In this document: piece by piece, positions 298 through 37,084 of the stretch | How the letters are laid out: every line of letters starts with the position of its first letter | Numbering within the stretch: the first letter of the stretch is position 1 | The notes under the pieces: generated by a model | What the model was told of the DNA's origin: nothing | The model's input: only the letters and a program-made list of their open reading frames with translations | Databases searched by the model: none | Position numbers and translations under genes: made by a program | Assembly: GCF_016862895.1 (NCBI RefSeq) | Contig: NZ_BONV01000006.1 | Location: 1 to 64,000 of the forward strand | DNA: 64,000 nt | Reading direction: 5' to 3' | Source of the DNA: Planotetraspora kaengkrachanensis | Lineage (GTDB): Bacteria; Actinomycetota; Actinomycetes; Streptosporangiales; Streptosporangiaceae

Positions 298-299
298 GG

Positions 300-1562: not shown

Positions 1563-1603
1563 CCCGCCAGTCTGAACGGCCCCCGGCGGGCGGGCGACCC
1601 ATT

Positions 1604-1634
1604 ATTCGGGGGAGCCATCTCATTCGGGGGAGCC
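1604..1634. repeat. Two direct copies of a 13-bp repeat
   Basis: ATTCGGGGGAGCC occurs at 1604-1616 and 1622-1634 with an 18-bp period, in the 73-bp gap between the ACT gene stop and the start of the APH-like gene. On the minus strand it could be a tandem regulator site for the APH-like gene. The role is unknown. Confidence 0.5.
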
Positions 1635-1635
1635 G

Positions 1636-2025: not shown

Positions 2026-2143
2026 GGACGGTGTGTACCACAGACGCCGAACTTCCAGGATTTCTGCAGTCCACGCCAGCTGCGATCGTCTGGGGCCGCG
2101 GCCCTGCCGCTCATAGATCTGATTAATCCGCGTCTGGTATGTA

Positions 2144-2165
2144 CGGATATAAGCATATTTATCCG
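2144..2165. promoter_or_regulatory. Inverted repeat between ACT gene and GntR gene
   Basis: CGGATA (2144-2149) and TATCCG (2160-2165) form a 6-10-6 palindrome in an AT-rich part of the divergent intergenic region (2026-2276). It is a candidate operator for the adjacent FCD-type GntR regulator. The assignment rests on symmetry and position only. Confidence 0.4.
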
Positions 2166-2242
2166 ATCTAACGAGGCGAAGTTTCAGATAATTGGCAAAA
2201 CCTTCTTCTATTCGTCCGAGACTTGGGTGCATACTCTCCTCC

Positions 2243-2259
2243 GATAGAACAGATCTATC
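2243..2259. promoter_or_regulatory. Palindrome just upstream of gntR
   Basis: GATAG (2243-2247) and CTATC (2255-2259) flank seven bases, 18 bp before the GntR start and just upstream of its GAGGAG ribosome binding site. It shares the TATCCG word with the palindrome at 2144-2165, which suggests autoregulation. Confidence 0.4.
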
Positions 2260-2276
2260 CGTGTGAGGAGTGGGCG

Positions 2277-3041: not shown

Positions 3042-3156
3042 CCCGGATCCCCTGGGATCATCCACGCCGTTCCATCCGGCTCAGTTCCGTCCTCCGTCTT
3101 GGGTGACGGCCGCCTGATCACCCCTCCTGTTCCCGCATGCGTCCGATTGGGAATTC

Positions 3157-6100: not shown

Positions 6101-6444
6101 TTCCTTCGCTGGCCGTCGATGGTGACCTGTCGACCCGGTGGGCGCAGGGCCTCGGACTGCCCGACCCGTCGTGGATCCAGGTCGACCTCGGTCAGGCCAC
6201 CTCCGTGAAGAGCATCGTGACGACGTTCGAGCTGACCAACGGTTACAAGTACCGGCTCGAGTACTCGGTCGACGGGACGGCGTGGTCGACGTTCGACGAC
6301 CACACGGCCGTGGCCACCACGGAACGGGTGAACACCGCGTTCGCCCCGGCCCCCGTGCAGGCGCGTTATGTACGGCTGACCGTCACCGGTTCGAACTGGA
6401 ACGGCGGCAGCATCTATGAGCTTCAGGTCTACGGCAGCTTCTGA
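3157..6444 (+). CDS. Secreted GH141-like beta-helix protein with FN3 and discoidin modules
   Basis: This 1095-residue protein starts with a signal peptide (basic MSRLSASLRAARR, hydrophobic stretch, ASA at about 34-36). The segment from about 45 to 640 is a right-handed parallel beta-helix whose N-terminus (LYVSPVTGRDGNPGTKARPF, later ISGGTQVRGW) follows the GH141-type pattern, a family with alpha-L-fucosidase and xylanase members. Then come FN3 (648-735), F5/8 type C discoidin (737-866), FN3 (872-962) and a second discoidin module (965-1095). The discoidin modules probably bind carbohydrate. It likely acts outside the cell on plant polysaccharide, supplying sugars to the importer encoded downstream. 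The specific linkage cut is unproven. The ribosome site before ATG 3157 is weak. Confidence 0.8.
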   Translation: MSRLSASLRAARRVFTAAAGLALAVTTLVPAGAASAEQAHSADVTLYVSPVTGRDGNPGTKARPFKTLEGARDHVRSISRKARGDIDVVLADGTYPLTRTFTLTSADSGRNGHRTTYRAAPGAHPVISGGTQVRGWALSDPARNIYKAHVGDIDTRQLYVDGELETRARDRDNPPGFSKTATGYAIIDQSLQHLKNQQYIEVDSRWGWMHYRCPVQSITATAMTMQQQCWHNANLHEGQEIQTPSWLENAYEFLDTPGEWYLDKTTGDLYYMPKPGQDLATATVTVPRVQDLVDLNGDIDDPVRNIGFEGITFSYATWLEPSGPDGMVEGQAGFRITGTDNPNFDSTRLKWVKTPGAVNVTYGHDVEFTDNTFTHLGAVGLNLNTGTQGTLINGNVFKEIAGTGLQVGGTDVIDAHPDDPRSITKDNTVTNNVVTNVADQYGGSLGIFAGYTDHTVISHNKIYDLPYSGISLGWGWGLTDKGGDTNYPGNSGVPIWDTPTTAKNNVITDNRIYDIMKRQADGGAIYTLSSNPNSVVSGNYISGVPSPAYGAIYHDEGSRYFHTTRNAFCDVAFQWMLMNHGLNIDAEYNFTTQPQYSTQFNTLDSTVADNTTVDGCQQLPASIVDNAGLEPQYRHLDPDQPSGDRSAPSAPSKPSVVTAFPTVADLSWAASTDDTGVTGYSVYRDGKLVSASKNPQTRVTGLTAGQKYTFTVTARDAAGNESRKSRAITVTMPAGTDLALHKPVTVSSYSEPNVPDLAVDGDLSTRWAQGLGLPDPSWIQVDLGAQHDISGVITTFEKQSGYKYRLEASTDQSRWVTIDDHTAASTTTSADYTSLTQPIAGRYVRLTVTGSNWNGGSIYELQVYGTPLPSGADTQAPVLSGKPTANVLLPGTLDLSWPGATDDAGIAGYTVTQDGKQIALTGQATLRVSGLAPATPYTFSVIARDAAGNESAPILLTLTTPADDDLALHKPVTVSSYSEPNVPSLAVDGDLSTRWAQGLGLPDPSWIQVDLGQATSVKSIVTTFELTNGYKYRLEYSVDGTAWSTFDDHTAVATTERVNTAFAPAPVQARYVRLTVTGSNWNGGSIYELQVYGSF
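5365..6192 (+). repeat. Near-identical 144-bp direct repeats encoding discoidin halves
   Basis: Bases 5365-5508 and 6049-6192 are almost identical at the DNA level and encode the N-terminal halves of the two discoidin modules (SYSEPNVP, STRWAQGLGLPDPSWIQVDLG-type block). A shorter pair, about 5688-5750 and 6373-6435, encodes the module ends (RLTVTGSNWNGGSIYELQVYG). The middle of each module has diverged. This is a recent internal duplication, or one kept similar by gene conversion. Confidence 0.85.
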
Positions 6445-6487
6445 AGCCCACCCGGGGCGAACGGCGCCCCTTGAACAGAGAGTCAGT

Positions 6488-7585
6488 ATGAAGATCACAC
6501 ATGTTGAGGTCCACCGGATCCATGTCCCCGCGGCCGACCCGCCGTTCCGCTGGCGGCACGGGCTGGGCGGCAGCGCCCCCGCGGGCGAAGGTGCGGTCCT
6601 GCGCATCGGCACCGACGAGGGCGCGGAGGGCGTCGCCCTGTTCGCCCGCCCGGGCGCGGCGGTCATGCTCGACGACCTGGCGGACCGCGTGTTCCGCGAG
6701 GAGCTGATCGGGCAGGACCCGTTCCAGCGTGAGTGGCTGTGGCACCGGGTGTGGGAGTTGGACCGGATCCAGGAGCTGCCGCTGCCGACTCTCGGTCTGA
6801 TCGACATCGCCTTGTGGGACCTGGCCGGCCGGGTGGGCGGGCAGCCCACCTGGCAGGTGCTCGGCGGGTTCCGGACGGAGATCCCGGCGTACGCGTCGAC
6901 GTCGACTTTCGCGACCACCGAAGAGTTCCTCGACGTCGCCGATCAGTGCCTCGAACTCGGATACCGGGGCATCAAGCTGCACGCCTGGGGCGACGCCGCC
7001 CGGGACGCGGCGCTGTGTGTGGCGCTTCGTGAGCACGTCGGACCGGATGTTCCGCTGATGTACGACGGTTCGGCCGGCTTCGACCTGCCGGATGCGATCC
7101 GGCTCGGTCGTGCGCTCAGCGAGGCGGACTACCTCTGGTACGAGGAGCCGATGCGCGAGTTCAGCATCACCGCGTACCGGCAACTGGCCGAAGCTGTGGA
7201 CGTCCCCCTGCTGGTGGCCGAGACCTCCGACGGTGCGCACATGAACTCCGCCGACTTCATCAAGGCGGGCGCGGCGACGTTCGGAGTGCGCACGAGCACG
7301 ACGCTGCGCGGCGGCATCACCGGCGCGATGCGCACGGCCCACCTGGCCGACGCATACCGGATCCGCGCAGAGGTGCACGGTTCGGACATCCCGAACCACC
7401 ACCTGTGCATGGCGATCTCGAACACCACCTATTACGAGTCGCTCGTGACCGCGCGCACCGTGGTGCGAGAGCGGCACGTCGACGCCGCGGGGCTGGTGCA
7501 CGCTCCGCAGGGGCCGGGCATCGCCCTGCCCGCCACCCTCGACTACGGGCCTGAGCTGCGGCGATTCGTCGAGCCGGGCGCCTGA
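6488..7585 (+). CDS. Enolase-superfamily (mandelate racemase/muconate lactonizing) enzyme
   Basis: The 365-residue protein has the capping domain (MKITHVEVHRIHVP start) and TIM-barrel of the MR/MLE group. Metal-ligand strands are visible as MYDGSAG, YEEPM and VAETSDG. The base motif on strand 2 is GIKLHAWG (Lys-x-His). On strand 6, where mandelate racemase-type enzymes carry the Asp of the His-Asp dyad, this protein reads RTSTTLRGGITG, so the Asp is absent; a His follows in SDIPNHH. Relatives dehydrate or isomerise sugar acids. The frame is open from 6416, but ATG 6488 follows the previous gene sensibly. It lies between the GH141-like gene and the sugar importer and probably handles an acid sugar released from plant material. 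Confidence 0.82.
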   Translation: MKITHVEVHRIHVPAADPPFRWRHGLGGSAPAGEGAVLRIGTDEGAEGVALFARPGAAVMLDDLADRVFREELIGQDPFQREWLWHRVWELDRIQELPLPTLGLIDIALWDLAGRVGGQPTWQVLGGFRTEIPAYASTSTFATTEEFLDVADQCLELGYRGIKLHAWGDAARDAALCVALREHVGPDVPLMYDGSAGFDLPDAIRLGRALSEADYLWYEEPMREFSITAYRQLAEAVDVPLLVAETSDGAHMNSADFIKAGAATFGVRTSTTLRGGITGAMRTAHLADAYRIRAEVHGSDIPNHHLCMAISNTTYYESLVTARTVVRERHVDAAGLVHAPQGPGIALPATLDYGPELRRFVEPGA

Positions 7586-7618
7586 CCTCCCCCGTAAGAC
7601 CCAGAAAGGCGGCCCCCA

Positions 7619-9007
7619 ATGAAGTCACCCGAGTCATCGAAGCCGAGCGCGCGGCGCCTCCGGTCGCGCAGCGCCTTGGCACTGCTGTCGCTGGCCACCG
7701 CCGCGGTTCTCGCCGGCTGTGCCAGCGCCGAGCAGTCGACCCCCGCGGCCAGTGCGTCACCTGCCGGTTTCCAGCCCGTCGCGCAGACCGACGGCTCGCA
7801 GATCACGGTATGGGCGGACTCGACCCGGCTCCCCGCCGTGCAGCAGTACCAGAAGTCGCACCCCGCGGTGAAGATGGACATCGTCACCTACGACGGCAGT
7901 GCGAACGGTTCGACCTACCTGCAGACCAAGGTTCAACTGTTCGACCGGACCGGAAACGGCTGGCCGGACGTCGTCTTCGGCAGCCCGACGGACGTCACGT
8001 GGGCCTCCCGGCCGACCGGCCCGTCGGCCACGGCCTTCGCCGCCCCGCTGGACCAGAACCTCGTGCCGAAACAGACGCTCGACGGCTTCGCGAAGGGTTC
8101 GCTCGAACCGTGCCAGGCGAACGGCCACACCTACTGCATGCGTAACGACATCGCGCAGGTCGTGCTCTGGTACAACAAGGCGCTGATGGACAGGTTCGGC
8201 TATGAGGTGCCCACCACCTGGGAGCAGTACGAGGCGCTGGGTGAGAAGGTCGCGAAGGAACACCCCGGCTACCTGGTCGGCTCGATCGGAGACACGAACT
8301 CGCAGGAGTCCTACTTCTGGTCGAGTAAGTGCCCGGCGTTCAACCTCGTGGGCCCGGACACGCTCAAGGTCGATCTGGCTGACGCGAACTGCACCCGGAT
8401 GGCGACCCTGCTCGACAAGCTGATCGCCGCCAAGGCGGTGACCACGCAGGGTTTCTTCAGCCAGGGCTTCGCGAAGGAGGGCGGCGGCAAGGTCCTGATG
8501 GCCAACGGCCCGTCCTGGTACGGGCAGTACCTGTTCAACTCCGCCTTCAAGGTGCCGGCCGGGCAGATCGCCGCGGCGGCACCGCTGACCTGGGAAGGGG
8601 AAAGCGACGGGGCCACCGGCAACGTGGGCGGCGGGGTCTGGATGGTGTCCTCGCACAGCAAGAACCTGAAGGCGTCAACCGACCTGGTCACCTGGCTCAC
8701 CACCTCGGATGAGAACCAGGCGAACGCGCCGACGTACCCGGCCTACGTCCCGGCGGCGAAGGCGTGGCTGGCGAACCCGGTCAACAAGGAGTACTTCGCG
8801 ACCGACATCGGCGACGTCTTCCAGAAGGCGGCCGACCTGGTCTGGACGGGCTGGTCGAACACGAGGTTCAGCGACGCCACCGCCTGGTCGAGCGTGGTGC
8901 TGCCGGCGTTGACCGAGGGCAAGACTCTCAGCGAGACGCTCCCGCAGTGGCAGACGGCGATCATCGACGAGGCGAAGTCCGTCGGGTACACGATTGCGGC
9001 CAAATGA
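7619..9007 (+). CDS. Sugar ABC transporter substrate-binding lipoprotein
   Basis: A 462-residue CUT1-type extracellular solute-binding protein. A basic N-terminus and hydrophobic stretch end in the lipobox LAGC (Cys about residue 34), followed by a Ser/Ala/Pro linker; the mature protein is tethered outside the membrane. The fold is seen in ITVWADSTRLP at the start, DVVFGSP, VLWYNKALMDRFG and the late NGPSWYGQY region. Ribosome site AGAAAGG precedes ATG 7619. It overlaps the first permease gene by ATGA. The ligand is unknown, but its position between an enolase-type sugar-acid enzyme and two permeases points to an oligosaccharide or acidic sugar released by the upstream beta-helix protein. Confidence 0.88.
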   Translation: MKSPESSKPSARRLRSRSALALLSLATAAVLAGCASAEQSTPAASASPAGFQPVAQTDGSQITVWADSTRLPAVQQYQKSHPAVKMDIVTYDGSANGSTYLQTKVQLFDRTGNGWPDVVFGSPTDVTWASRPTGPSATAFAAPLDQNLVPKQTLDGFAKGSLEPCQANGHTYCMRNDIAQVVLWYNKALMDRFGYEVPTTWEQYEALGEKVAKEHPGYLVGSIGDTNSQESYFWSSKCPAFNLVGPDTLKVDLADANCTRMATLLDKLIAAKAVTTQGFFSQGFAKEGGGKVLMANGPSWYGQYLFNSAFKVPAGQIAAAAPLTWEGESDGATGNVGGGVWMVSSHSKNLKASTDLVTWLTTSDENQANAPTYPAYVPAAKAWLANPVNKEYFATDIGDVFQKAADLVWTGWSNTRFSDATAWSSVVLPALTEGKTLSETLPQWQTAIIDEAKSVGYTIAAK

Positions 9008-9942
9008 CCAAGGTGATCACCGGGCGCGAAGCTGTGCCCTCCGCCATGCCGGTTCCCCGTCGCGCCACCGCGCGGCGGGGAACCGGCCTGGCCGGTTACC
9101 TGTTCGTCTCCGGCTACGCGATCCTTCTGCTGGCCTTCGGGGTCTTCCCCACGGTGTACGCGTTCTTCCTCGCGCTGACCAATGACCGAGGCCAGTTCAC
9201 CGGGTTGAACCAGTTCGTCAAGGTGGCGCAGGACTACCGGTTCGGGCCCGCCTTCCTCAACATCCTGCTGTACCTGGTCATGTGGCTGCTGTCGCTGGTG
9301 GTGCTGACGGTCGTCGTGGCGGTGGTGCTGCGCGGCCGGATGAGGCCGAGGCTTTCCGCGATCTTTCGATTCCTGTACTACCTGCCGGGTGCGCTCGCCG
9401 GAGTGGCGAGCGTGCTCGTGTGGCTGTTCATGCTCGACCCCGCGGTCAGCCCGGTGTCGTGGCTGCTGAGAACCATGGGCTTCGACAACTTCGCCGCGGT
9501 GTTGTCGCCGGGAGATCTGCCGGTGATTCTCGTGCTGATCGCATTCTGGACCGGCGCCGGTGGCTGGATCGTGGTGATGTACGGCGCGCTGAACAACATC
9601 CCCGACGAGGTGCTTGAGGCGGCCCGGACGGACGGCGCCGGCCCATGGAAGACGGCGTGGCACATCCAGATTCCGATGATCCGCAAGTGGATCGCGTACA
9701 TGGCCATTCTCGCCTTCGCCGCCGGCACGCAACTGTTCGTCGAGCCGCAGCTGCTCCAGACGGCGAGCCTCGGCCGGGTCAGTCCGACGTGGTCGCCCAA
9801 CCAGCTCGCCTACGTCTACGCGTTCCAGCACGGCGACTTCAACGGTGCCGCCGCGATCTCCATCTTCCTGCTTGCGCTCGGGCTGATCTGTGCCGCGCTG
9901 CTGGTGACCCGCTCCGACCTGTTCAAGGTGGACGAATCATGA
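9004..9942 (+). CDS. Sugar ABC transporter permease (MalF-like)
   Basis: A 312-residue membrane protein with six predicted membrane segments, beginning with YLFVSGYAILLLAFGVFPTV. The EAA loop that contacts the ATPase is visible as EVLEAARTDGAGPWKTAWHI. The ATG at 9004 overlaps the stop of the binding-protein gene (ATGA, 9004-9007), so translation is coupled; the frame upstream of 9004 belongs to another gene. It forms the inner-membrane channel with the next gene product. No ATPase gene follows, so the energiser must be encoded elsewhere. Confidence 0.9.
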   Translation: MTKVITGREAVPSAMPVPRRATARRGTGLAGYLFVSGYAILLLAFGVFPTVYAFFLALTNDRGQFTGLNQFVKVAQDYRFGPAFLNILLYLVMWLLSLVVLTVVVAVVLRGRMRPRLSAIFRFLYYLPGALAGVASVLVWLFMLDPAVSPVSWLLRTMGFDNFAAVLSPGDLPVILVLIAFWTGAGGWIVVMYGALNNIPDEVLEAARTDGAGPWKTAWHIQIPMIRKWIAYMAILAFAAGTQLFVEPQLLQTASLGRVSPTWSPNQLAYVYAFQHGDFNGAAAISIFLLALGLICAALLVTRSDLFKVDES

Positions 9943-25870: not shown

Positions 25871-26006
25871 CCGTCAGCGGGGCCGCCTGCAGCCTCGAAT
25901 CGGGATTCGGCACATGATCCTTTGCTAGCGCGACGGGAACATGCCGGACATCTGGCCGTAACTGATCATCTATACGGTCGCGGCATCACCCCTCAAGGAG
26001 CATGTG

Positions 26007-29000
26007 GTGCGCAAACTCCGCCTCGCCCTGGCAGCTCTCGTCTCCCTGTCCCTCGCCGTCCCGCTGACCCCGACGACCGCCGCGGCCAAGACCCGCCGGC
26101 CCCCTGTGCTCGACCTGGAGAAACTCACCGGCGCCCAGGCCGAGGCCATGATGGCCAAGGGACAGCTCACCTCCGTCGAGCTCACCAAGGCCTACATCGA
26201 CCGGATCGAGGCGCTGAACAAGCGCGGTCCGGGGCTGAACGCCGTGACGCAACTCAACGAGGACGCGCTGCAGGAGGCGGCGTGGGCCGACCGGATGCGT
26301 GCCAAAGGAAAGGTCCTCGGGCCCGCCCACGGCCTGCCCATTCTTCTGAAGGACCTCGTCGACGTCACCGGCATGTACACCTCGGCAGGCAACTACTCGC
26401 TGCGCGACTCGTATCCGGCGACGGACGCGGGCATCACCAAGAAGCTGCGTGAGCGCGGGGTCGTCATCCTCGGCAAGGTCGGCCTCTCGGAGTTCGCCAA
26501 CAGCTTCGGCAGCCAGCCCTCCGGCTTCGGCAACCTCACCGGGCAGGTACTCAACGGCATCGACGCCGACCAGAACCCCAGCGGCTCGTCGTCGGGAACC
26601 GGTGCGGCCATGGCCGCCGCGATGGCCACGCTCGGCATCGGCACCGAGACGTCAGGCTCGATCATCAGCCCGTCGAGCACACATAGCCTCGTCGGGCTCC
26701 GGCCGACCGTCGGGCTCGTGCCGGGGTACGGCATCGCGCCGATCAGCGCGTCGCAGGACACGGCGGGGCCGATGGTCCGCAGCGTGTCGGACGCCGCGAT
26801 GACGCTCGCCTCGATCGCCGGGCCCGACCCGGACGGCGACGCCGAGTACCGCGCCATCTTCGGACCCGACTACCTCGCCACAGGCGTCATCCCGGCGCTG
26901 CCCGCGAAACTGCCGGACTACATGAAGGCGCTCGACCTCGGCTTCGTCAAGGGCAAGAAGATCGGCTTCAACGGCACGCTCACCGACGGCAGCCCGCTCA
27001 AGATCGCATATGACGTGCTCACCGCGGCGGGCGCGATCATGGTTCCGCGACCGACGACCAGTGTCGGCACGCTGCCGAGCCTGCCCAGTGGATATGAGCA
27101 GCACAAGACCATCGACGAGTACTACGGGCGGCTCGGCCCGCAGGCGCCGATCAGGTCGCTGGCCGACGAGGTGGCCGACAACCAGGCCAACGCGCAGCAG
27201 GCCCTGAAGTTCGGCAACAACAACCACCTCAACGCGCTGGCCGCCGACATCACCCCCGGCGGGGCCAACGAGACCGCTTACCGGGCGAACCTGCCCGTAC
27301 GCAAGGCCGCCTGGCACAAGGCCATCGACGACATGATGACCTACACGAACTCCGACCCGGCCCAGCCCGCCGACCCCGTGATCGCGATCCTCGGCAGCGT
27401 TCCGAACGGGCCGCAGGCCGGGTATCCCTCGATGACGATCCCCATGGGCTACGCCGCCACGACGCGCCGCGCGCTCAACGTACAGATCCACGGCGGCGCG
27501 TACGACGAGTACGACCTGATCGGCACCGGCTACGTAATCGAGCAGGCCACCAAGCTGCGGCAGACGGCCGGTTCGGTCAACCCGAGCATGTACCGCTGTG
27601 CGAGGACGGTCCCGGCCGAGCCCTTCGCCGGGCGCGGTCACTGCAACCCCGACTACGACACGATCATGCGGGCGCTCGGCCACGCGCCGAAGCCGCTGCC
27701 GTTCTCCCTGGAGACCGAGTCGGCGCGGAGCCTGAGCGCCCGGCTCGCCGCCGGCACGCTGACCTCGGAAGAGCTGGTCAAGGCCTACCTCTACCGGATC
27801 GCGCTGACCAACGCCGAGGGACCGGCCACCCAGGCGGTCCGCGCCGTCAACCCGGATGCGCTGAAGGAGGCCCGCGCGATCGACCGGGAGCGCGACAAGG
27901 ACAGGAAAGACAAGAGGGACAAGAAGCAGCGCGGCCCGCTGTTCGGCCTTCCCGTCCTGCTGAACGACGGGTTCGACGTGGACGGCATGGCCACGACGGG
28001 CGGCTCCATCGCGCTTCAGGACCGCAAGCCGTACGGCGACTCCACCGTGGTGGCCAAACTCAGGGCCGCCGGGGCGATCATCCTCGGCAAGACGAACGTC
28101 TCCGAGCTGAACGGCGTCTTCGACGCGAACATGCCGAAGGGCTACTCCTCCCTCGCCGGGCAGGTGCTGCTGCCGTCCGACACCGACAAGACCCCGGCCG
28201 GTTCGTCCGGCGGTTCCGCCGCGGCGACGGCGTCCGGGCTGGCGGCGATCACCGTCGGGATGGAGACCTCGACCGACTCCGCCCAGCTGCTGGCGCCAGC
28301 GGACGCGGCGGGCGTGGTCGGCCTGAAGCCGACGGTCGGCCTGGTCAGCCGAGCCGGCGTCCTTCCGGTCGCCCGGTCGCAGGACGCGCCCGGGCCGATC
28401 ACCCGCACCGTGTACGACGCCGCGAGCACGCTCACGGCGATCGCCGGACCCGACCGGTCCGACCCGGCGACCGCGGGCGCACCCGTGAAGGACTACGCCA
28501 AGGGGCTGTCCACGACCGCGCTCACGGGGAAGCGGATCGCCGTCGTGGCGAGCACGGCAGCGCCGTACCCCGCGACGGTGTCGGCCCTCCAGGCACTGGG
28601 GGCCACGACGACGCAGGTGACGGTCGGCTCGCCGAGCCCCGACCCGGCGAGCGTCGTGACGCGTGAGTTCGAGCGCGACCTGAACGATTACCTGGCCGAC
28701 GGCAGGCGCGGTCCCGGAGCCCGGTCGCTGCAGGGCGTCATCGACTACAACGACGCCAACCCCGTGGAGGGACTGAAGTACCAGCAGGGCCAGCTGCTGT
28801 CCGCCCAGGCCGTCGACCTGTCCGATCCCGCGGCCGGCGCGGCCTACAAGGCCGACCTGGACGCGGGCAGGGCGTCCAACCGGGCGGTGATCGACGGCAT
28901 CCTCACCAACGGAACGCCCGGCGACCCGTCGGACGACTTCGACGCCGTCGTCGTGCCGACCGGCCACGCGCTCGTCGGTTACGCCGACCGCGCGGGCTAC

Positions 29001-29264
29001 CCGGCGCTGACGCTGCCGGCCGGGTACGGTGCGACCGCCAGTTCGGCGGGCCACAACCCGATCGGCGTCACGCTCGTCGGCACGGCCTTCAGCGAGACGA
29101 CCCTTCTCGCCGACGGCTACGCCCTGGAGCAGGCGACGAACGTCCGCCTCGCCCCCAGCTCAACCAACCCGAGCATGTGGCGGTGCGTGCCCGGCAGCAC
29201 GTTCTTCACCGGGGAGCTGTGCAACCCCGGTGACCGCCTCCTCGAATTCCGTTCCGGTCACTGA
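26007..29264 (+). CDS. Secreted tandem amidase (two amidase-signature domains)
   Basis: The 1085-residue protein has a signal peptide (MRKLRLALAALVSLSLAVPL, cleavage after TAAA) and two amidase-signature domains, about 35-535 and 560-1080. Domain one keeps the Ser-cisSer-Lys machinery: Lys115 in ILLKDLVDV, the GSSSGTG loop and TETSGSIISPS. In domain two the Lys is replaced by Asn (LLNDGFDV, residue 653) and the nucleophile loop is disturbed (METSTDSAQLLAP), although GSSGGS remains. Domain two is therefore probably a non-catalytic partner. The family hydrolyses amides. AAGGAG at 25995-26000 favours GTG 26007 over GTG 26004. Single gene, followed by a strong terminator. Confidence 0.88.
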   Translation: MRKLRLALAALVSLSLAVPLTPTTAAAKTRRPPVLDLEKLTGAQAEAMMAKGQLTSVELTKAYIDRIEALNKRGPGLNAVTQLNEDALQEAAWADRMRAKGKVLGPAHGLPILLKDLVDVTGMYTSAGNYSLRDSYPATDAGITKKLRERGVVILGKVGLSEFANSFGSQPSGFGNLTGQVLNGIDADQNPSGSSSGTGAAMAAAMATLGIGTETSGSIISPSSTHSLVGLRPTVGLVPGYGIAPISASQDTAGPMVRSVSDAAMTLASIAGPDPDGDAEYRAIFGPDYLATGVIPALPAKLPDYMKALDLGFVKGKKIGFNGTLTDGSPLKIAYDVLTAAGAIMVPRPTTSVGTLPSLPSGYEQHKTIDEYYGRLGPQAPIRSLADEVADNQANAQQALKFGNNNHLNALAADITPGGANETAYRANLPVRKAAWHKAIDDMMTYTNSDPAQPADPVIAILGSVPNGPQAGYPSMTIPMGYAATTRRALNVQIHGGAYDEYDLIGTGYVIEQATKLRQTAGSVNPSMYRCARTVPAEPFAGRGHCNPDYDTIMRALGHAPKPLPFSLETESARSLSARLAAGTLTSEELVKAYLYRIALTNAEGPATQAVRAVNPDALKEARAIDRERDKDRKDKRDKKQRGPLFGLPVLLNDGFDVDGMATTGGSIALQDRKPYGDSTVVAKLRAAGAIILGKTNVSELNGVFDANMPKGYSSLAGQVLLPSDTDKTPAGSSGGSAAATASGLAAITVGMETSTDSAQLLAPADAAGVVGLKPTVGLVSRAGVLPVARSQDAPGPITRTVYDAASTLTAIAGPDRSDPATAGAPVKDYAKGLSTTALTGKRIAVVASTAAPYPATVSALQALGATTTQVTVGSPSPDPASVVTREFERDLNDYLADGRRGPGARSLQGVIDYNDANPVEGLKYQQGQLLSAQAVDLSDPAAGAAYKADLDAGRASNRAVIDGILTNGTPGDPSDDFDAVVVPTGHALVGYADRAGYPALTLPAGYGATASSAGHNPIGVTLVGTAFSETTLLADGYALEQATNVRLAPSSTNPSMWRCVPGSTFFTGELCNPGDRLLEFRSGH

Positions 29265-29285
29265 CGTCGACTGACCGTAGAGGTT

Positions 29286-29320
29286 GAGGGGCCCGTGCCG
29301 GACGACGGCGCGGGCCCCTC
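29286..29320. terminator. Strong bidirectional terminator hairpin
   Basis: GAGGGGCCCG (29286-29295) pairs with CGGGCCCCTC (29311-29320), extended by a G-U pair and GCC/GGC around a 7-nt loop. It sits 22 bp after the amidase stop and between it and the convergent esterase gene. Confidence 0.8.
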
Positions 29321-29397
29321 GCGTTGTGGCCGCAGGCCATCCGGGGCCGGGTCAGGCGGCGCCTACGTATGAGGACGCCGCCCGCGACAGCGGGGAC

Positions 29398-30378
29398 TCA
29401 GCCGTTGGCAAGGAGTTTGTGCAGGTGACGGACTTGCTCCTCGACCTGGAAGGGGCCGCCGCCCTCGTGGTTGTTCCACGGCCACACGGTGATCTCCTTG
29501 GGCCCCTGCCAGTGGTTGTAGCCGCCGAACACCGTGGACGGCGGGCAGATGTCGTCCATCAGCGCCACCGAGTACAGCGCGGGCACCCGGCCACGGGCGG
29601 CGAAGTTGAGGCCGTCGAAGTACGAAAGCGTGCGGAACACCTGCTCGGGCGTGCCGCGCTGGGAGGCGAGGAAACGGACGAGTTCCTGGTAGGGGTCACT
29701 GCCCGTGATCTCCACGGCCCGGCGGAAGTGGGTGAGGAACGGCACGTCGATGAGTGCGGCCCGCACGTCGGTCCGCAGCGCGGCGACGGCCTGGGCGATG
29801 CCTCCGCCCTGGCTGACGCCCGAGACCACGATCGCCCGGGGGTCGACCGCGGGGTGTCCCGCCGCCACGTCGACGGCGCGCACCGCGTCGGTGAAGACCC
29901 GCCGGTAGTAATAGGTGTCGGGGTCGAGGATCCCCCTGGTCATCATGCCCGGCACGTGCGGGGCGCCGCCCGCGTGCGGGTCGGCGGTGCTGCCCGGGTT
30001 CTGCAGATGCGCCGCACCCTGGCCGCGGGTGTCGACCACGAGCGTGGCATAGCCGGCCGACGGCCAGATCAAGTGATCGTGGGCGAAGCCCCGCCCTCCG
30101 CTGTAACCGATGTACTTCACCACGCACGGCAGCGGGCCGTCCGCTCCGCGCGGGACCAGGAACCAGGCGTTCACCCGGTCGCCGCCCCAGCCGGAGAAGG
30201 CGGTGTCGTAGACGTCGACGGAGGTGAGGGGGAGGTCGTACGGCGTGAACACGGGGGCCAGGTCGTGCTCCGCGGCCTCGGCGAGGGTCCGGGACCAGAA
30301 GGCGTCGAAGTCCGCGGGCTCGTCGCGTTCCGGGAGGTAGTGACGGAGCTCTTCGAGGGGCAGGTCGAACAGCGGCAC
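29398..30378 (-). CDS. Acetylxylan esterase/cephalosporin-C deacetylase (CE7)
   Basis: The 326-residue alpha/beta hydrolase matches CE7: the typical N-terminus [16 protein letters not shown], the RGQG motif, the nucleophile elbow GVSQGGG, the Asp in ALMDDICPP and the His in NHEGGG. CE7 enzymes deacetylate xylo-oligosaccharides and other small acetyl esters, usually in the cytosol as hexamers. There is no signal peptide. I choose GTG 30378 because GGAG lies 6 bases upstream and the product then begins exactly like CE7 relatives; the frame opens at TTG 30390. It fits the plant-polysaccharide theme but stands alone. Confidence 0.9.
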
Positions 30379-30400
30379 AACGATCTCCAAACGTTAGACG

Positions 30401-30410
30401 TGTCCGGACA
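30401..30410. promoter_or_regulatory. Short perfect palindrome upstream of the esterase
   Basis: TGTCCGGACA lies 23 bp before the esterase start. It is a candidate regulator site; ten bases could occur by chance. Confidence 0.3.
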
Positions 30411-30644
30411 TTTCACCCCATCGCCTGCTGCGAACGCCATCCCGGGCGCGCGGATCGTGTGTCGTTCCCGGCCTGCGGGCCGGTGGCATGGGCGATCCTG
30501 TCGGCAGGGGGACGCGGCCCCATGTCGATCTCGGTCGGGCAGGGGCATCTGGGCGTTCGCAGTTTGCGAAAGGAGCCTAGGGGTGTTTTTCGGGCCGCTA
30601 CGCTCCGTTTGGGGGCGATGTGAACGCCCAGGTTGGAGGGCCTG

Positions 30645-32447
30645 GTGGTAGAGGACGGAGCGCAGATCCTCGCGTCGGCGAACGGATCCGCGTCGGCGAA
30701 CGGATCAGCGTCGTCGGGCACGGCGGTCGGGCGGGTGCTCGGCACTCAGGCGGCGTCGCCGCTGTCGTTCTGGATCGGCGTCGAACCCGGACAGGCCGTG
30801 CAGCTCGACGAGGTCGTCATCACGCGGCGGGATGTGCCGGGGCACGGTCCCGTGCTGATGGCTGGGGTGGTCACGACGGTGGAGGCGCGGCACGAAGGCG
30901 CCAGCTACGACTCGGACGTGTTCCTGATCGCCGACGGGACGCTGCCGGCCGCCGTGGTCGAATGCGCCGAGGTCCGGGTCACGCGGGTCGAACCCGAGGT
31001 CTTCGTGCCCCCCTCGCCGGGAGCGGTCGTCTACCGGGCCCAGGCCGCCGATCGTGATCAGGCTCTCTACTTCGACGTCATGGACCGCCGCATCCCGATG
31101 GGGCTCGGGCGGGACGGGCACCCGATGTACGTCAACTTCGACTTCCTCGACGGCACGCGCGGAGCGCACGTGTCGATCTCGGGGGTCTCGGGTGTGGCGA
31201 CGAAGACCTCCTTCGCCACGTTCCTCATCTATTCGATCTTCAATTCCGGGGTCCTGGACGCGGAGGCGGCCAACACCAAAGCGCTGATCTTCTCGGTCAA
31301 GGGCGAGGACCTGCTGTTCCTCGATCATCCCAACGCCCGGCTCGACGAGGCCGCCACGGGCATGTACGGCAGGCTCGGTCTGCCCGCCCGGCCGTTCCAC
31401 AGCGTCCACGTGTTCGCGCCGCCGCGCCCCGGCGACCCCAACGGCGTCCCGCACGTGTCCTCACGGACGCAGGGGATAAGCGCCTTCTTCTGGACGTTGG
31501 CCGAGTTCTGCCAGGAGGAACTGCTCCGGTTCGTCTTCGCCGACGCCGACGACGAACGTGCCCAGTACTCCCTCCTCGTGGGCTCGGTCGCGGCCCGGCT
31601 GCAGGCGTGGGCGGCTCCCGCCGGCGACGGGGGAGCGGTCACGATCACGCCCCCCGGAGGGAGCGGTGTCACCTGCCGCACCTTCGCCGACCTGGTCGAT
31701 CACATCGCCGACCAGCTCACCGACGACGGAACGCGGTCGACCTGGGCGGGCGCGCAGGTGCCGCTCGGAACGGTGAACGCGTTCCTGCGCCGTCTCCGCG
31801 GCGCCGTACGCGCGCTGTCGCCGATCGTCCGCGGCGACCTCCCGCCCGGGCGGCGGCACTCGATCAGCACCTCGGACGCGCAGGTCTCGATCGTCGACCT
31901 GCACAACCTGCCCGAGAGGGCACAGCGGTTCGTCGTCGGCGTGGTCCTGCGCGGCGAGTTCGCCCGCAAGGAGAGCAGCGGCACGGCTCGGCCCCTGCTG
32001 TTCGTCGTGCTCGACGAGCTGAACAAGTACGCGCCGCGTGAAGGCGACTCACCGATCAAGGAGATCCTGCTCGACGTGGCCGAGCGCGGCCGCTCGCTGG
32101 GGGTGATCCTCATCGGCGCCCAGCAGACGGCCTCGGAGGTAGAACGGCGCATCGTCGCGAACTGCGCCGTCCGCGTGGCCGGGCGGCTCGACCCCGCGGA
32201 GGCGTCGCGTCCCGAGTACGGCTGGCTGCCGGCGATCTCCCGGGAGCGTGCCACCATCGCCAAGCCGGGCACGATGTTCGTCGCCCAGCCCGAGATCCCG
32301 GTGCCTCTCGCGGTCACCTTCCCGTTCCCCGCATGGGCGACGCGGCCGTCCGAGGCGGATCCCGCCCCCACCGGCGCCGCCCGTCGCACGGTCGCCGACC
32401 CGTTCGCCGGGCTGCCCGGGGCCGACGACGACATTCCCCCTTTCTGA
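30645..32447 (+). CDS. herA: HerA-like hexameric ATPase/DNA translocase
   Basis: The 600-residue protein has an N-terminal HAS-barrel (about 25-130; GRVLGTQAASPLSFWIGV onward) and a HerA/FtsK-type ATPase core. The Walker A region reads SGVSGVATKTS (Lys187), where the usual Gly before Lys is Thr. Walker B is LLFVVLDELNKYAP (Asp457, Glu458). RSLGVILIGAQQT and a sensor/arginine region follow. HerA translocates DNA for the NurA nuclease during end resection. It is the first gene of the HerA-SbcD-SbcC-NurA operon. GTG 30645 is chosen because GGAGG lies 5 bases before it. Residues 10-21 derive from an 18-bp tandem DNA repeat (ASANGS twice, 30672-30707). Confidence 0.85.
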   Translation: MVEDGAQILASANGSASANGSASSGTAVGRVLGTQAASPLSFWIGVEPGQAVQLDEVVITRRDVPGHGPVLMAGVVTTVEARHEGASYDSDVFLIADGTLPAAVVECAEVRVTRVEPEVFVPPSPGAVVYRAQAADRDQALYFDVMDRRIPMGLGRDGHPMYVNFDFLDGTRGAHVSISGVSGVATKTSFATFLIYSIFNSGVLDAEAANTKALIFSVKGEDLLFLDHPNARLDEAATGMYGRLGLPARPFHSVHVFAPPRPGDPNGVPHVSSRTQGISAFFWTLAEFCQEELLRFVFADADDERAQYSLLVGSVAARLQAWAAPAGDGGAVTITPPGGSGVTCRTFADLVDHIADQLTDDGTRSTWAGAQVPLGTVNAFLRRLRGAVRALSPIVRGDLPPGRRHSISTSDAQVSIVDLHNLPERAQRFVVGVVLRGEFARKESSGTARPLLFVVLDELNKYAPREGDSPIKEILLDVAERGRSLGVILIGAQQTASEVERRIVANCAVRVAGRLDPAEASRPEYGWLPAISRERATIAKPGTMFVAQPEIPVPLAVTFPFPAWATRPSEADPAPTGAARRTVADPFAGLPGADDDIPPF

Positions 32448-32456
32448 AGGAGCCGG

Positions 32457-33611
32457 ATGAAAATCCTGCACACCGCCGACTGGCATGTCGGCAAGGTGCT
32501 CAAGGGCCGACCCCGGATCGACGAACACCGCGCCGTGCTGCGGGAACTGGTCCAGGCGGCCAGGGAGGAGGACGTGGACGCGGTCATCGTGGCCGGCGAC
32601 GTCTTTGACACCTCCGCTCCCACGCCGGAGGCGCAGTCCCTGGTGATGCCGACCCTCATGGCGTTGCGTGAAGAGGGACGCGACGTGGTCGTGCTCGCCG
32701 GAAACCACGACAACCCGCACCTGTTCGACGTCTACCGGCCGGTGCTCGGGGCGCTGGGCATCCACGTCGTCGGCACGTTCCGGCGGCCCGACCAGGGCGG
32801 AACCCTGTCGTTCACGGCGCGCTCGGGCGAGCCGGTGCGGTTGGCCGTCCTGCCGTTCCTGTCGCACCGGTACGTCGTCCGCGCGGCCGAGGTCCTGTCG
32901 GGTACCGCCGCGGAGCACAATCGCGACTACGCGGAACGGGTCGCCATGTTGATCGGCGCCCTCACCGGGGGCTTCTCCGCCGACACCGTCAACCTGGTCA
33001 CCACGCACGGCACGCTGCCCGGCGGAAAGCTCGGCGGCGGCGAGCGCGAGGCACAGTCGATCTTCTCCTATTACTTCGAGGCGACCGCCTTCCCCGCATC
33101 GACGCAGTACGTCGCTCTGGGGCACCTCCACCGGCGTCAGCAGATCCCCGGGGCCTGCCCGATCTGGTACAGCGGGTCTCCGCTCGCGGTCGACTTCGGG
33201 GAGGAGCGCAACAGCCCCGGGGCCCTGCTCGTCACGGTGGAGCCGGGCCGTCCGGCGATGGTCCGCGACCTCGCCGTCGACTCGGCCCGCGCCCTGGCCA
33301 CGGTGAGAGGCTCGCTGGACCGGCTCGAGGCCATGGCGGACGAGCTCGGCGAGGCCTGGCTGCGCGTCGTCGTCGAGGAGAAGCCCAGGCCCGGACTCGC
33401 GGAAGCGGTCCGGGAGATCCTGCCGAACGCCCTGGACGTCGACATCGACGAGCGCTTCCGCCCGACGCGCGCGCAACGCAGGGGAAACGCGGACGCCGGG
33501 TCTCCGCGCAGTCCACGCGAGCTGTTCCGCGACTACCTGACGGACACGGGCAGGGATGACGCCGAGGTCGCCGCGCTGTTCGACCGGCTCTACGACGAGG
33601 TGACGAGCTGA
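32457..33611 (+). CDS. sbcD: SbcD/Mre11-type exonuclease subunit
   Basis: A 384-residue metallophosphoesterase nuclease. All Mre11 motifs are present: TADWHVGK (residues 6-13), GDVFD near 48, GNHDNP near 83, THGTLPGG near 182 and GHLHRRQ near 223. The C-terminal part, with helices and a basic linker, would contact SbcC. With SbcC it forms the ATP-driven Mn-dependent nuclease that opens hairpins and trims DNA ends. AGGAG precedes the ATG 9 bp after herA; its stop overlaps the sbcC start by one base (TGATG). Confidence 0.95.
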   Translation: MKILHTADWHVGKVLKGRPRIDEHRAVLRELVQAAREEDVDAVIVAGDVFDTSAPTPEAQSLVMPTLMALREEGRDVVVLAGNHDNPHLFDVYRPVLGALGIHVVGTFRRPDQGGTLSFTARSGEPVRLAVLPFLSHRYVVRAAEVLSGTAAEHNRDYAERVAMLIGALTGGFSADTVNLVTTHGTLPGGKLGGGEREAQSIFSYYFEATAFPASTQYVALGHLHRRQQIPGACPIWYSGSPLAVDFGEERNSPGALLVTVEPGRPAMVRDLAVDSARALATVRGSLDRLEAMADELGEAWLRVVVEEKPRPGLAEAVREILPNALDVDIDERFRPTRAQRRGNADAGSPRSPRELFRDYLTDTGRDDAEVAALFDRLYDEVTS

Positions 33612-36049
33612 TGCGCCCCCTGCGGCTGCACCTGGACAACTTCGGCAGCTTCCGTGAGGCGGTCACGGTCGACTTCGCCGATGTGGACTACTTCGCGCTG
33701 GTCGGACCCACGGGAGCGGGCAAGAGCACGATCATCGACGCGATCTGCTTCGCCCTGTACGGCACGGTCCCGCGCTGGGGCAAGGAGAACGTCATCTCCC
33801 ACGCGCTGGCGCCCTCGGCGACCTACGGCAAGGTCGCGCTGGTCTTCGAGTCCTCCGGACGCCGCCATGTCGTGGTGCGGTCTCTGCGGCGCGACGCCAG
33901 GGGCACGGTGCACACCAAGGAGGCCAGGCTCGACGAACTCGACCCCGGCGTGCCTTCGACCGCCGAGCTCACAGAGATGCTGGACGCGGTCGTGCGCCCG
34001 GTCGCCGAAGGAGAGGCGGTCGGCGACGAGGTTCAGAAGATCACGGGTCTGGAGTACAAGTTCTTCACCCAGTGCGTGGTGCTCCCGCAGGGCAAGTTCG
34101 CGGAGTTCCTGCACGCCCGCCCACGCGAGCGGCAGGACCTGCTGGTGCAGTTGCTCGACGCGGAGGTCTACGAGCGCATCCAAAAGCGCGCCGGGCGTGA
34201 GGAGGACCTGGCCAGGCAGGCCGCGGAGTTCGCCAGAAACGAGCTCTCCGGTCTCAGCGGCGCCGGCGAGGACGACGAGCGTGCCGCCGTCGAGCGGCTC
34301 GACGCGCTGCGCGCCCTGCGCGACCGCATCCAGGGCGACCTCGACACGCTGCGCGCCAATGAGGAATCGCTGCAGAGGAAGATCCGCGACCGGGACGCGA
34401 TCGCGGGAAGGCTGGCCACGCTCACCGGTCTCAGCATGCCCGGCGACGTCCCGACCCTGGCGGGGGAACAGCGCGAAACAGAGGAGCGGGTCGCCGCGCT
34501 CGGCGTCGAGGTCGGGCGCATGGAGGCCGAGGAACAGCGTGCCGACGACGAGCTGACCGCTCTGGGAGACAAGTCGGCTCTCGTCGCCGCGCTGGCCGCC
34601 CTCGACGAACAGGCCCGGGGGAGAGCCGAGCTCGCGCAGGCCGAAGCGCAGTCGGAGGAGGCGCAGGCCACGCTGGAACGGCTCGCCGACGAGGCGGGGC
34701 AGGCCGACGCGGCGCTGGCGGAGGCCGAGCGCGCCTGGGAGGCGCTGCGTGACGCCCATGCCGCCGCGGCGCTCGCCGGGAGACTGGTCGTCGGAGAGCC
34801 GTGTCCCACCTGTCTGCGCCCCGTCATCGACCTCCCCCGGCACGCCGCCCTGTCCGATCTCCACACGGCGGAGCATGAGGTTCAGGCCCGCAAGAAGCAC
34901 GCGGCCCAGGTCACCGCCCGGCACCGTCAGGCCGAGAACGACACCCACCACTTCGCGAAGCAGGTGCAGATCTGCCGTGCACGGCTGGCGGAGTCACCCC
35001 AGGTCACGCAGGACCGAGCCGATCTCGAAGCGGGCCTGATCGCCTGCCAGAAGGCCGAGCTCCGGGCCGCCGAGTCCAGGAAGAGCACACGGGAGATCCG
35101 GGCGAAACTGGCCGAAGCCGAGCGGCGCGCAGGAGAGTTGCGGAACAAGGCCGATCTGTCGTGGCGTCACCTGGACGCCGCTCGCGACACCGTCGTGGCC
35201 TTCGGCGCACCGCCCCTGGATCGGAAGGATCTCGGGCGGGCGTGGGCCGACCTGCTCGCCTGGCGTGATCAGGTCGTCGTCCGCGAGCGGGACGCCCTGG
35301 CCGTACAGGATGGGGAGATCGACGACGGGGGCCGGCGGCTGGACGGGGAACGGGCCGCGCTGCTGCGGCGGTTGGCGGAACACGACGTCGCCGTTTCCGG
35401 TGCGGTCGCACCCGGCGCGATCGGCGAGTCCGTGACCGCCGCCGTCACTCAGGCGGGAGCGCGGCTGGACCGGGTCAGGGAGAACCGCGAACGTGCCAGG
35501 CACCTGACCGAGTTCGCGGCCGCGAAGGAACAGGAGGCGAGGGTCGCCCACGAGCTCGCGCTCCGGCTGCGTGCCGACGCCTTCGAGCGCTGGTTGTGCT
35601 CCGAGGCGCTCGAATTGCTGGTCGCCACGGCCTCCGGCACCCTGCGCGACCTGACCGACGGGCAGTACGAGCTGACCGTGAGCACACGCGGCGACATCGA
35701 GGTCATCGACTACGGCGAGGCGGGGATGCGGCGCAGCGCCCGGACGCTGTCCGGCGGGGAGACCTTCCAGGCCGCGCTGGCTCTCGCGCTGGCCCTGTCG
35801 AGCCAGGTGGCGGGGCTGTCGGCCGCGGCCGCCCGCAGTCTCGACTCGATCTTCCTCGATGAGGGGTTCGGCACCCTCGACCCCGCCACGCTGGACACGG
35901 TCGCCACGACGCTGGAACGCCTGGCCTCGAGCGGGAACCGCATGGTCGGGGTGGTCACGCACGTGCCCGCACTGGCCGACCGGGTACCGGTCCGTTTCGA
36001 GATCACCCGGGACGCCAAGGGATCGCATCTGACGAAGGCGGCGCAGTGA
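33611..36049 (+). CDS. sbcC: SbcC/Rad50-type SMC-like ATPase
   Basis: An 812-residue Rad50/SbcC protein: Walker A GPTGAGKST (Lys38), long coiled-coil arms rich in Glu/Arg/Ala, a central zinc hook CPTC (Cys398, Cys401), signature LSGGETF (713-719) and Walker B IFLDEGFGTLD (Asp750, Glu751). It is shorter than the E. coli protein (about 1050 residues), so the arms are short, closer to archaeal Rad50 in size. With SbcD it bridges and processes DNA ends. Its stop overlaps the nurA start (GTGA), so translation is coupled. Confidence 0.95.
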   Translation: MRPLRLHLDNFGSFREAVTVDFADVDYFALVGPTGAGKSTIIDAICFALYGTVPRWGKENVISHALAPSATYGKVALVFESSGRRHVVVRSLRRDARGTVHTKEARLDELDPGVPSTAELTEMLDAVVRPVAEGEAVGDEVQKITGLEYKFFTQCVVLPQGKFAEFLHARPRERQDLLVQLLDAEVYERIQKRAGREEDLARQAAEFARNELSGLSGAGEDDERAAVERLDALRALRDRIQGDLDTLRANEESLQRKIRDRDAIAGRLATLTGLSMPGDVPTLAGEQRETEERVAALGVEVGRMEAEEQRADDELTALGDKSALVAALAALDEQARGRAELAQAEAQSEEAQATLERLADEAGQADAALAEAERAWEALRDAHAAAALAGRLVVGEPCPTCLRPVIDLPRHAALSDLHTAEHEVQARKKHAAQVTARHRQAENDTHHFAKQVQICRARLAESPQVTQDRADLEAGLIACQKAELRAAESRKSTREIRAKLAEAERRAGELRNKADLSWRHLDAARDTVVAFGAPPLDRKDLGRAWADLLAWRDQVVVRERDALAVQDGEIDDGGRRLDGERAALLRRLAEHDVAVSGAVAPGAIGESVTAAVTQAGARLDRVRENRERARHLTEFAAAKEQEARVAHELALRLRADAFERWLCSEALELLVATASGTLRDLTDGQYELTVSTRGDIEVIDYGEAGMRRSARTLSGGETFQAALALALALSSQVAGLSAAAARSLDSIFLDEGFGTLDPATLDTVATTLERLASSGNRMVGVVTHVPALADRVPVRFEITRDAKGSHLTKAAQ

Positions 36050-37026
36050 GCATCGCGATCGGACACGGCGGGTTCACCGTCGACGCGTGGGACCCCGGGT
36101 ACTCGGCGGCGCTGGCCGCCGACGCGCTCGCCGAACTGGGCGCGACGAGCGCGGAGCTCGACCTGGACGTCGAAGTCCCCGCCGCCGACTGGCGTCCCGT
36201 CAGTCCCGCCCCTGACGCCGCGCCACCCGCGGTGATGTCGATAGCCGATGGCGTCCGCCGCATCGACGCCCGCGTCTGGAGCCACGACGCGGGGGTCGTC
36301 CCGCCCTCGCCGGGCATCGCCGCCTCCTACGCCGCCGGGATCGTCCGGTGCACACCCGGCGATGGCGCACCCGCGCAACTCGCCGCCGTCGAGGTGCGCC
36401 GATCTCTGTTCACCGCCTCGCCGTACGCGTCGGACATCAAGACGACCGCCGGCGTCTATCGAGTGGAAGCCGCGGCCGACGACTCGATGGACGGACTTTC
36501 CCTCGCTCTTCAGCAGCGGCTCACCGAGCTCGAAGTGGATCTGTCGATTCGCGCCCGCGCCGATGACGCCGGTGCGGACGACCTGCTGCTCGTCGACGGG
36601 CCGCTCCGCGGTCGCACCCACCTGCCGCGGACCGTGGGCTACATCAAGACGCACCACACGGCCTATCTCCCTGCGCCCCAGGCCGCCGTGGTCTCCGCGC
36701 TCGGCCCCGGGCAACGCACGCCGGTCTTCCTGATGGGTACCAGCTGGCGCCGGCACGCCTGGTATGTGGCCCTGCCGGTCCGATCGGCCGCGCCCTGGGC
36801 GGGGGTCGTGCGGTGTGAGGGCGGCGCGGACATGAAACCGGACGAGGCGGTGCGGCTCGCGGACTCGGTCACGCTCGCGCTGCCGTCCCTCGCGGGCGTG
36901 GATTACAAGGACCCGCGCGCCCCCCAGAACCTCGTTCCCATCGGCGGACTCGAGAAGCTGCTGCGGCACCGGCTCGGCGATCCCCGTCTGCTCTACCGAT
37001 CCCTGCGCGCCGCCGCCGACCGCTGA
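36046..37026 (+). CDS. nurA: NurA-like DNA double-strand-break repair nuclease
   Basis: A 326-residue NurA-domain protein. Motif-like segments are IADGVRRIDARV near residue 65 (catalytic Asp), LLLVDGPL near 183 (second Asp) and VGYIKTHHTAYL near 200 (Lys/His), the order seen in NurA nucleases. NurA is the 5'-3' exonuclease that works inside the HerA motor. The gene begins at a GTG overlapping the sbcC stop and closes the four-gene operon. The assignment comes from motif reading plus context; a profile search would settle it. Confidence 0.78.
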   Translation: MSIAIGHGGFTVDAWDPGYSAALAADALAELGATSAELDLDVEVPAADWRPVSPAPDAAPPAVMSIADGVRRIDARVWSHDAGVVPPSPGIAASYAAGIVRCTPGDGAPAQLAAVEVRRSLFTASPYASDIKTTAGVYRVEAAADDSMDGLSLALQQRLTELEVDLSIRARADDAGADDLLLVDGPLRGRTHLPRTVGYIKTHHTAYLPAPQAAVVSALGPGQRTPVFLMGTSWRRHAWYVALPVRSAAPWAGVVRCEGGADMKPDEAVRLADSVTLALPSLAGVDYKDPRAPQNLVPIGGLEKLLRHRLGDPRLLYRSLRAAADR

Positions 37027-37084
37027 AACCTCCGGGGGTCCAGGCAAGGCCCGCACCGGCCGTACCTCGCGCATGTGAGATCCA

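Follow-up and report, generated by a model that had tools for sequence, protein, structure and literature searches.

The genes for HerA, Mre11, Rad50, and NurA follow one another in this order in Pyrococcus. Published work describes an archaeal operon with this gene set (PMC4663267) and states that, among bacteria, NurA-HerA occurs only in a few, such as Deinococcus-Thermus, where RecBCD is missing (PMC9960219). The Deinococcus phylum is without RecBCD and AddAB (PMC9960219), and the link of its HerA-NurA to SbcCD "remained to be uncovered" (PMC4663267). In contrast, the soil actinobacterium considered here, Planotetraspora kaengkrachanensis, has AdnAB and carries herA and nurA in one operon with sbcD and sbcC. 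This operon occupies positions 30645 to 37026 on the plus strand of a 64,000-nucleotide stretch, hereafter the window (assembly GCF_016862895.1, contig NZ_BONV01000006.1). Bacterial HerA-NurA is already known; what appears to be new is the operon with SbcCD in actinobacteria, together with a C-terminal tip on HerA that resembles the tip of single-stranded DNA-binding protein (SSB). As judged from listings and passages, we found no description of either in the open-licence literature, and we claim no priority for the operon. On balance, we consider that the operon probably encodes accessory machinery for DNA-end resection, of the bacterial HerA-NurA type, whose motor would recruit SSB-binding repair proteins.

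Identity of the four operon genes

The first gene, herA (30645 to 32447; 600 amino acids), encodes a HerA DNA translocase and is separated by 9 nt from sbcD (32457 to 33611; 384 amino acids), which encodes the Mre11 nuclease. The sbcD gene overlaps sbcC (33611 to 36049; 812 amino acids), which encodes the Rad50 ATPase, in the sequence TGATG, and sbcC overlaps nurA (36046 to 37026; 326 amino acids), which encodes a nuclease, in the sequence GTGA. All four genes lie on the plus strand. Their coordinates, strand, and two overlapping junctions match those given in an earlier annotation that was made from the letters of the window (the sequence-only reading).

No Pfam family matched the window HerA, and scans with NCBIfam and PADLOC models returned only weak matches. 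When a family profile built from an alignment of 23 HerAs was compared with solved structures, Deinococcus radiodurans HerA (DrHerA) was found at 1.4e-188. The best fold match of the predicted model (mean predicted local distance difference test [pLDDT] score of 76.6) was 7WRX (6.9e-58, 46% identity). The window protein has the HAS-barrel and the RecA-like core with Walker A and B motifs found in DrHerA. Its K187/T188 and D457/E458 are invariant among the relatives aligned, and we paired them by eye, from printed alignments, with the residues named for DrHerA, K175/T176 and D487/E488 (PMC9960219). The P-loop is odd (GVSGVATKTS), but Deinococcus HerA has nearly the same one (GISGVATKTS), so we regard it as a family trait and not as a defect. 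These matches bear out the HAS-barrel HerA-like ATPase of the sequence-only reading: the nearest solved relative, by profile and fold rather than by tree, is DrHerA and not a member of an unrelated ATPase family.

The assignment of nurA was less direct. The Pfam NurA family (PF09376) scored 13.2 bits on the window protein (E = 0.062), below its cutoff of 21, and gave no match in the whole genome at an E value of ≤0.001. Even at an E value of ≤1, it matched only 11 of 20 family members (best E value, 0.0024). On this side, the profile search that had been proposed for the 36046 product failed; on the other side, a family profile built from 20 aligned relatives of the final operon gene, compared with solved structures, found D. 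radiodurans NurA (DrNurA; 7F6D) at 3.1e-38 and Thermotoga NurA (1ZUP) at 7e-4. The first four fold matches of the AlphaFold model (mean pLDDT, 84.5) were 7F6D_G (3.8e-18), two chains of 1ZUP (7e-14), and Sulfolobus NurA 2YGK (3e-6). Comparison with solved NurA by profile and fold is a stronger test than the Pfam score, and the predicted model has the NurA fold; the NurA-like nuclease suggested at 36046 therefore stands. W15, D68, K201, and R291 were invariant in 20 of 20 aligned sequences. Paired by eye with W8, D53, K201, and R309 of DrNurA (PMC9960219), they are the counterparts of the catalytic Asp, Lys, and Arg and of the pin-side Trp.

The remaining two genes encode a calcineurin-type nuclease and an ABC ATPase whose two halves are joined by a short coiled coil with a CxxC hook, as expected of SbcD and SbcC. 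SbcD matched Metallophos, SbcD_C, and TIGR00619, the last above its cutoff (6e-50). SbcC matched TIGR00618 at 4e-72 with 243.6 bits, below the model cutoff of 478.5 bits; the protein is short. Its zinc hook reads CPTC, as the sequence-only reading had noted, and across the 80 loci used for the comparison of protein distances (see below) the hook was CPVC, CPTC, or CPAC in 77 and CLVC in 1, with none found in 2.

The same reading had called the operon archaeal-style. That description holds for which genes are present and how they are ordered, all four in one operon, but not for the proteins, whose nearest solved relatives are HerA and NurA of the bacterium D. radiodurans (7F6D, 7WRW, and 7WRX). 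In the fold alignments seen, the window HerA was 45 to 47% identical to Deinococcus HerA and 14 to 16% identical to archaeal HerA, and the window NurA was 27% identical to DrNurA and 10 to 16% identical to archaeal NurA. The unusual P-loop is common to the Deinococcus protein, and the counterparts of its catalytic residues are invariant. By sequence comparison, then, the window HerA and NurA are of the bacterial (Deinococcus) type, with the archaeal proteins far behind as judged by profile and fold.

An SSB-like C terminus on HerA

Among 96 distinct HerAs, a set without the Streptomyces plasmid copy (L166), the conserved FPFPAWATR motif is followed by 27 to 60 further residues of varied sequence. 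In the window protein, residues 575 to 600 (32367 to 32444, plus strand) form a linker and tip ending ...DPFAGLPGADDDIPPF, and residues 576 to 600 are predicted to be disordered (pLDDT < 50). All 96 HerAs terminate in PF and carry an acidic residue at position −5. The tip is exactly DDDIPF in 50 of the 96 and DDIPPF in 21, and at least two of the last seven residues are acidic in 94; outside PF and the acidic residues, the tip varies. Across 106 loci (at least three genomes entered this count twice, once per locus set), a looser rule requiring a PF end and two acidic residues in the last nine was passed by 102 of the 104 HerA copies called; among 1105 other genes, two passed it, of which one is a truncated HerA. 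The tip was absent from the sequence-only reading.

Escherichia coli SSB ends in MDFDDDIPF, and this tip is bound by RecO and other proteins (PMC7913777). By sequence, actinobacterial HerA has the features of the SSB tail (SSB-Ct), namely, a disordered linker that ends in an acidic tip with terminal PF, and 50 of the 96 HerAs have their final six residues in common with E. coli SSB. The difference is one of context: the tip here sits on an ATPase, whereas the SSB tail belongs to an oligonucleotide/oligosaccharide-binding (OB)-fold protein. In 10 of 10 cluster-bearing genomes (the window genome and nine others), the best-scoring SSB also has an acidic PPF end, GDFSDEPPF in the window genome and SDEPPF, YDEPPF, SDDPPF, TDEPPF, or DEEPPF in the other nine. 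Seventeen further SSB-family matches were found in these genomes; 13 lack a PPF end, and the 4 that have one all come from genome G318. That genome has six SSB-family matches, and the five that were read (L176, L182, L191, L194, and L195) all end in PPF, which sets them apart from the SSB paralogues in the other tested genomes. As a separate observation, a 610-amino-acid protein encoded close to the Thermomonospora catenispora herA cluster (L090, 14605 to 16437, minus strand) does not cluster with HerA and has the SSB-like end DPDDEPPF.

No such tip was present on the HerAs of three plasmid clusters from cyanobacteria or Chloroflexota (3 of 3 without it; see below). When DrHerA was probed with the DDDIPF end, the alignment did not reach the last eight residues, and DrHerA, unlike the window HerA, seems to be without a tip. 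The tip therefore looks like an addition in actinobacterial HerA. The C-terminal domain of Deinococcus RecJ binds HerA (PMC4663267) and also the SSB tail (PMC4846377). A single partner domain can serve both HerA and an SSB tail, in Deinococcus without a tip on HerA.

Were the operon to work as we propose, its acidic HerA tail could still have another purpose, regulating the machine from within by binding the machine's own basic surfaces (the HerA pore or NurA), with a likeness to SSB that arose by convergence. In single-strand-binding proteins, the acidic tail is known to touch the protein's own DNA-binding face, and the variation at the other tip positions also speaks for such a role. However, the exact DDDIPF ending in about half of the HerAs, the terminal PF in all of them, the near absence of the looser tip from other genes of the same loci, and the similar ends of the main SSBs of the same genomes argue against internal regulation, which we regard as quite unlikely. 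A docking site for proteins that bind the SSB tail is the interpretation that we carry forward.

Distribution in actinobacteria and on mobile elements

Among 296 genomes drawn from the class, the window genome included in each count, NurA searches matched 18 and the HerA profile, at 1e-50, matched 17. The additional NurA-only genome (G284) has broken NurA pieces at L052 10546 to 10929, with the other three genes absent from the 20 kb read; this locus is probably the remnant of a decayed cluster. Strong HerA matches were found in 10 of 41 genomes comprising the window genome, which is one of the 10, and 40 relatives, and the operon is present in two of four other species of the genus. In one species of the genus without it (G299), the counterparts of window positions 30445 and 37061 are approximately 0.88 kb apart, between flanks that are 88.5 and 91% identical to those of the window, so that the cassette missing at this site spans 30446 to 37060 of the window. 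The DNA in its place (L158, 9164 to 10040) contains an open frame of approximately 200 amino acids, and neither of two open reading frames (ORFs) there had a Pfam match. A search of the empty site for a cassette remnant, using tblastn with the four proteins, gave nothing better than an E value of 0.034.

Where the cluster is present, its order is kept. In a first set of 24 loci, the four genes share one strand and the window order in 22 (among them L060, which is cut at both contig ends); of the other two, L058 ends with the contig after three genes, and L052 is the remnant. A second set comprised the best 80 of at least 521 candidate stretches encoding relatives. All four genes are in order in 68 of these 80, with longer gaps in two of the 68 (before sbcC in L109 and before sbcD in L124), and the other 12 reach a contig end before nurA or earlier. 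All of the best 80 are actinobacterial by title, with genera including Planotetraspora, Microbispora, Nonomuraea, Streptosporangium, Herbidospora, Acrocarpospora, Actinomadura, Micromonospora, Actinoplanes, Plantactinospora, and Dactylosporangium. Because the order recurs in 22 of 24 and 68 of 80 loci, the operon is not a chance arrangement, and the survey of actinobacteria proposed in the sequence-only reading shows that it is no one-off. Pairwise distances of the four proteins were strongly correlated over 80 loci (r = 0.946 to 0.963; permuted maximum, 0.159), which fits joint inheritance. These 80 were obtained from the 82 loci in which all four proteins could be called, after two with identical HerA were dropped; L052, L058, L060, and the duplicate L064 were excluded.

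Eight flanking genes scanned in three loci were metabolic, transport, sigma-factor, or sensor-kinase genes or were unclear. A RibD_C-type gene, an assignment tested with Pfam on one member (L042), lies within 6.2 kb upstream in 41 of the 49 loci L095 to L143. In the window, the plus-strand ORF at 29284 to 30651 was considered and rejected as a fifth operon gene; it had no family match, its translation is of low complexity, a minus-strand ORF (29398 to 30390) lies opposite, and the plus-strand ORF looks spurious. An upstream palindrome, TTCGCA-GTT-TGCGAA, was dropped because it was seen in the window alone among the upstream regions scanned. Farther upstream, a plus-strand ORF of 1,086 amino acids (26004 to 29264) contains two amidase stretches, one partial at approximately residues 59 to 277 (Pfam) and one full at approximately residues 560 to 1053 (NCBIfam), and an ORF of 1,087 amino acids lies within the syntenic stretch of G299 (L158, 11200 to 14463).

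Beyond actinobacterial chromosomes, tblastn searches of plasmids returned six records with HerA relatives, of which five were read; the sixth is a Nostoc record. Plasmids of Sphaerospermopsis, Aulosira, and Chlorohelix (cyanobacteria or Chloroflexota) carry the same four genes as the window in the order nurA-herA-sbcD-sbcC, with nurA first, whereas it is last in the window; their NurAs were recognized by profile at E values of 3e-44, 5e-20, and 2e-16 (seven-sequence set). The Streptomyces plasmid L166 has the actinobacterial gene order. The occurrence of the cluster in actinobacteria and on plasmids of other phyla indicates a bacterial module that spans at least three phyla and is sometimes borne on plasmids. 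Directly upstream of the L166 herA cluster, at 296 to 9313, lie type II Wadjet genes JetA2/B2/C2 and a gene for a CapP-like ImmA/IrrE metallopeptidase, and a second CapP-like metallopeptidase gene adjoins one of the three cyanobacterial or Chloroflexota plasmid clusters. We rejected the idea that such a metallopeptidase generally partners the cluster: when the two plasmid proteins were compared by blastp with the called genes of 106 loci, the sole match was the L166 protein itself. A further record filed as a plasmid, NZ_LT559118.1 (L170; Nonomuraea, 11.85 Mb), is a chromosome, judged from its size. A phage origin was likewise set aside, with three remote HerA matches in 50,697 phage records, one in viral contigs, and none more than 27.3% identical. 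On the viral contig L171 (4331 to 9461), a HerA-like gene (27% identical) comes after a gene that is NurA-like by eye only, and further upstream there is an ATPase with a CPFC motif; the NurA family profile did not find the candidate NurA-like gene on this contig.

This distribution bears on the main rival to a repair function, in which the operon is a defense nuclease against incoming phage or plasmid DNA: SbcCD would recognize ends, and the motor would thread foreign duplex ends into NurA for degradation. HerA with a nuclease is a recurrent defense pairing, presence of the operon is patchy across the class and within the genus, one syntenic site is without the cassette, and plasmid copies occur beside Wadjet and CapP-like genes. 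In PADLOC, SbcC matched MADS mad3 (105 bits) and Lamassu LmuB (68 bits), and HerA matched mad8 (33 bits). The HerA model also resembles the HerAs of the Sir2-HerA and DUF4297-HerA complexes, and NurA has a weaker fold match to a TdpAB entry (8WFD, 2e-4). However, mad3 and LmuB matches may reflect mere SMC-type likeness, both being general SMC/Rad50-like ATPases, and NurA had no PADLOC match. The PADLOC HerA models scored at most 24 bits on the window HerA, the anti-phage HerA model NF042944 scored 16.9 bits against a cutoff of 850, and identity to the listed defense HerAs was 12 to 16%, compared with 45 to 47% to Deinococcus HerA. The operon partner is NurA and not the Sir2 or DUF4297 protein of known anti-phage HerA systems. 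Three window flanking genes scanned (amidase, acyl-CoA ligase, and phosphotriesterase) had no PADLOC match, and one chromosomal neighbor, the RibD_C-type gene, is kept in most of the loci examined for it. We therefore judge a defense function unlikely, though less so than internal regulation by the HerA tail, and continue to favor accessory DNA-end resection. Counted in favor of repair are the RibD_C-type neighbor, the ordinary flanking genes, and the genomes, described below, whose only SbcD is that of the cluster.

A proposed resection route alongside AdnAB

The window genome has other resection genes. At C13, two adjacent large ORFs with PDDEXK matches have as their best solved relatives 7SJR/6PPJ chain A and 6PPU chain B, which we take to be mycobacterial AdnA and AdnB. 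A second SbcC, at C21, is 31 to 35% identical to the window SbcC in the ATPase ends. Homology searches of this genome, in contrast, gave one match each for herA and nurA, both in the window cluster. Given AdnAB and the second SbcC, the operon is an extra and not the sole resection module, in keeping with the possible second resection route raised by the sequence-only reading. Among eight cluster-bearing genomes, another SbcD above the cutoff was found in four (G297, G275, G131, and G100) and a second match below it in one (G142), and three (G318, G095, and G009) have the cluster copy only. Four genomes without the cluster (G299, G296, G016, and G037) have one SbcD each.

As an accessory resection machine, the operon products may work as follows. 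SbcCD would open blocked or hairpinned DNA ends, and a HerA hexamer would pump the duplex into a NurA dimer. If polarity is as in the Deinococcus complex, the dimer would cut the 5′ strand and leave a 3′ single strand. Six SSB-like tips on the hexamer would dock proteins that bind the SSB tail, with RecO as the first candidate, and the exposed strand would be handed directly to RecA loading. We put forward tentatively, as a possible but not the more probable outcome, that a HerA motor bearing six SSB docking tags replaces SSB at the resected end, recruits RecO and other proteins, and so couples resection to RecA loading, a way of handing over the strand that would have arisen independently of that of RecBCD.

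Several observations weigh against these proposals. The window genome already has AdnAB, and the AdnB query matched all 25 genomes tested for co-occurrence (23 with the cluster and 2 without). The gene set comes and goes within the genus, being present in only two of four other species and missing from the syntenic site of G299. Plain vertical descent would give the same correlation of protein distances. Two HerAs fail the tip rule, that of L044, which ends in HDPPPF with a single acidic residue, and that of the Streptomyces plasmid L166 (IDEPPY). DrHerA binds RecJ without a detected tip, so HerA can recruit partners by other means. Finally, D. radiodurans deleted for nurA and herA was approximately 10-fold more resistant to far-UV and to mitomycin C (PMC9960219), and a helpful repair role is thus not established even for the studied relative.

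Taken together, HerA-NurA and SbcCD in one operon recur across actinobacteria that keep AdnAB. The question of whether bacterial HerA-NurA works with Mre11-Rad50 can thereby be put to the test in hosts amenable to genetics, such as Streptomyces and Micromonospora. The SSB-like tip provides a specific, one-residue handle on how a resection motor may call the next repair factor and, if the proposal is true, hints at how the machine could pass its product to repair proteins.

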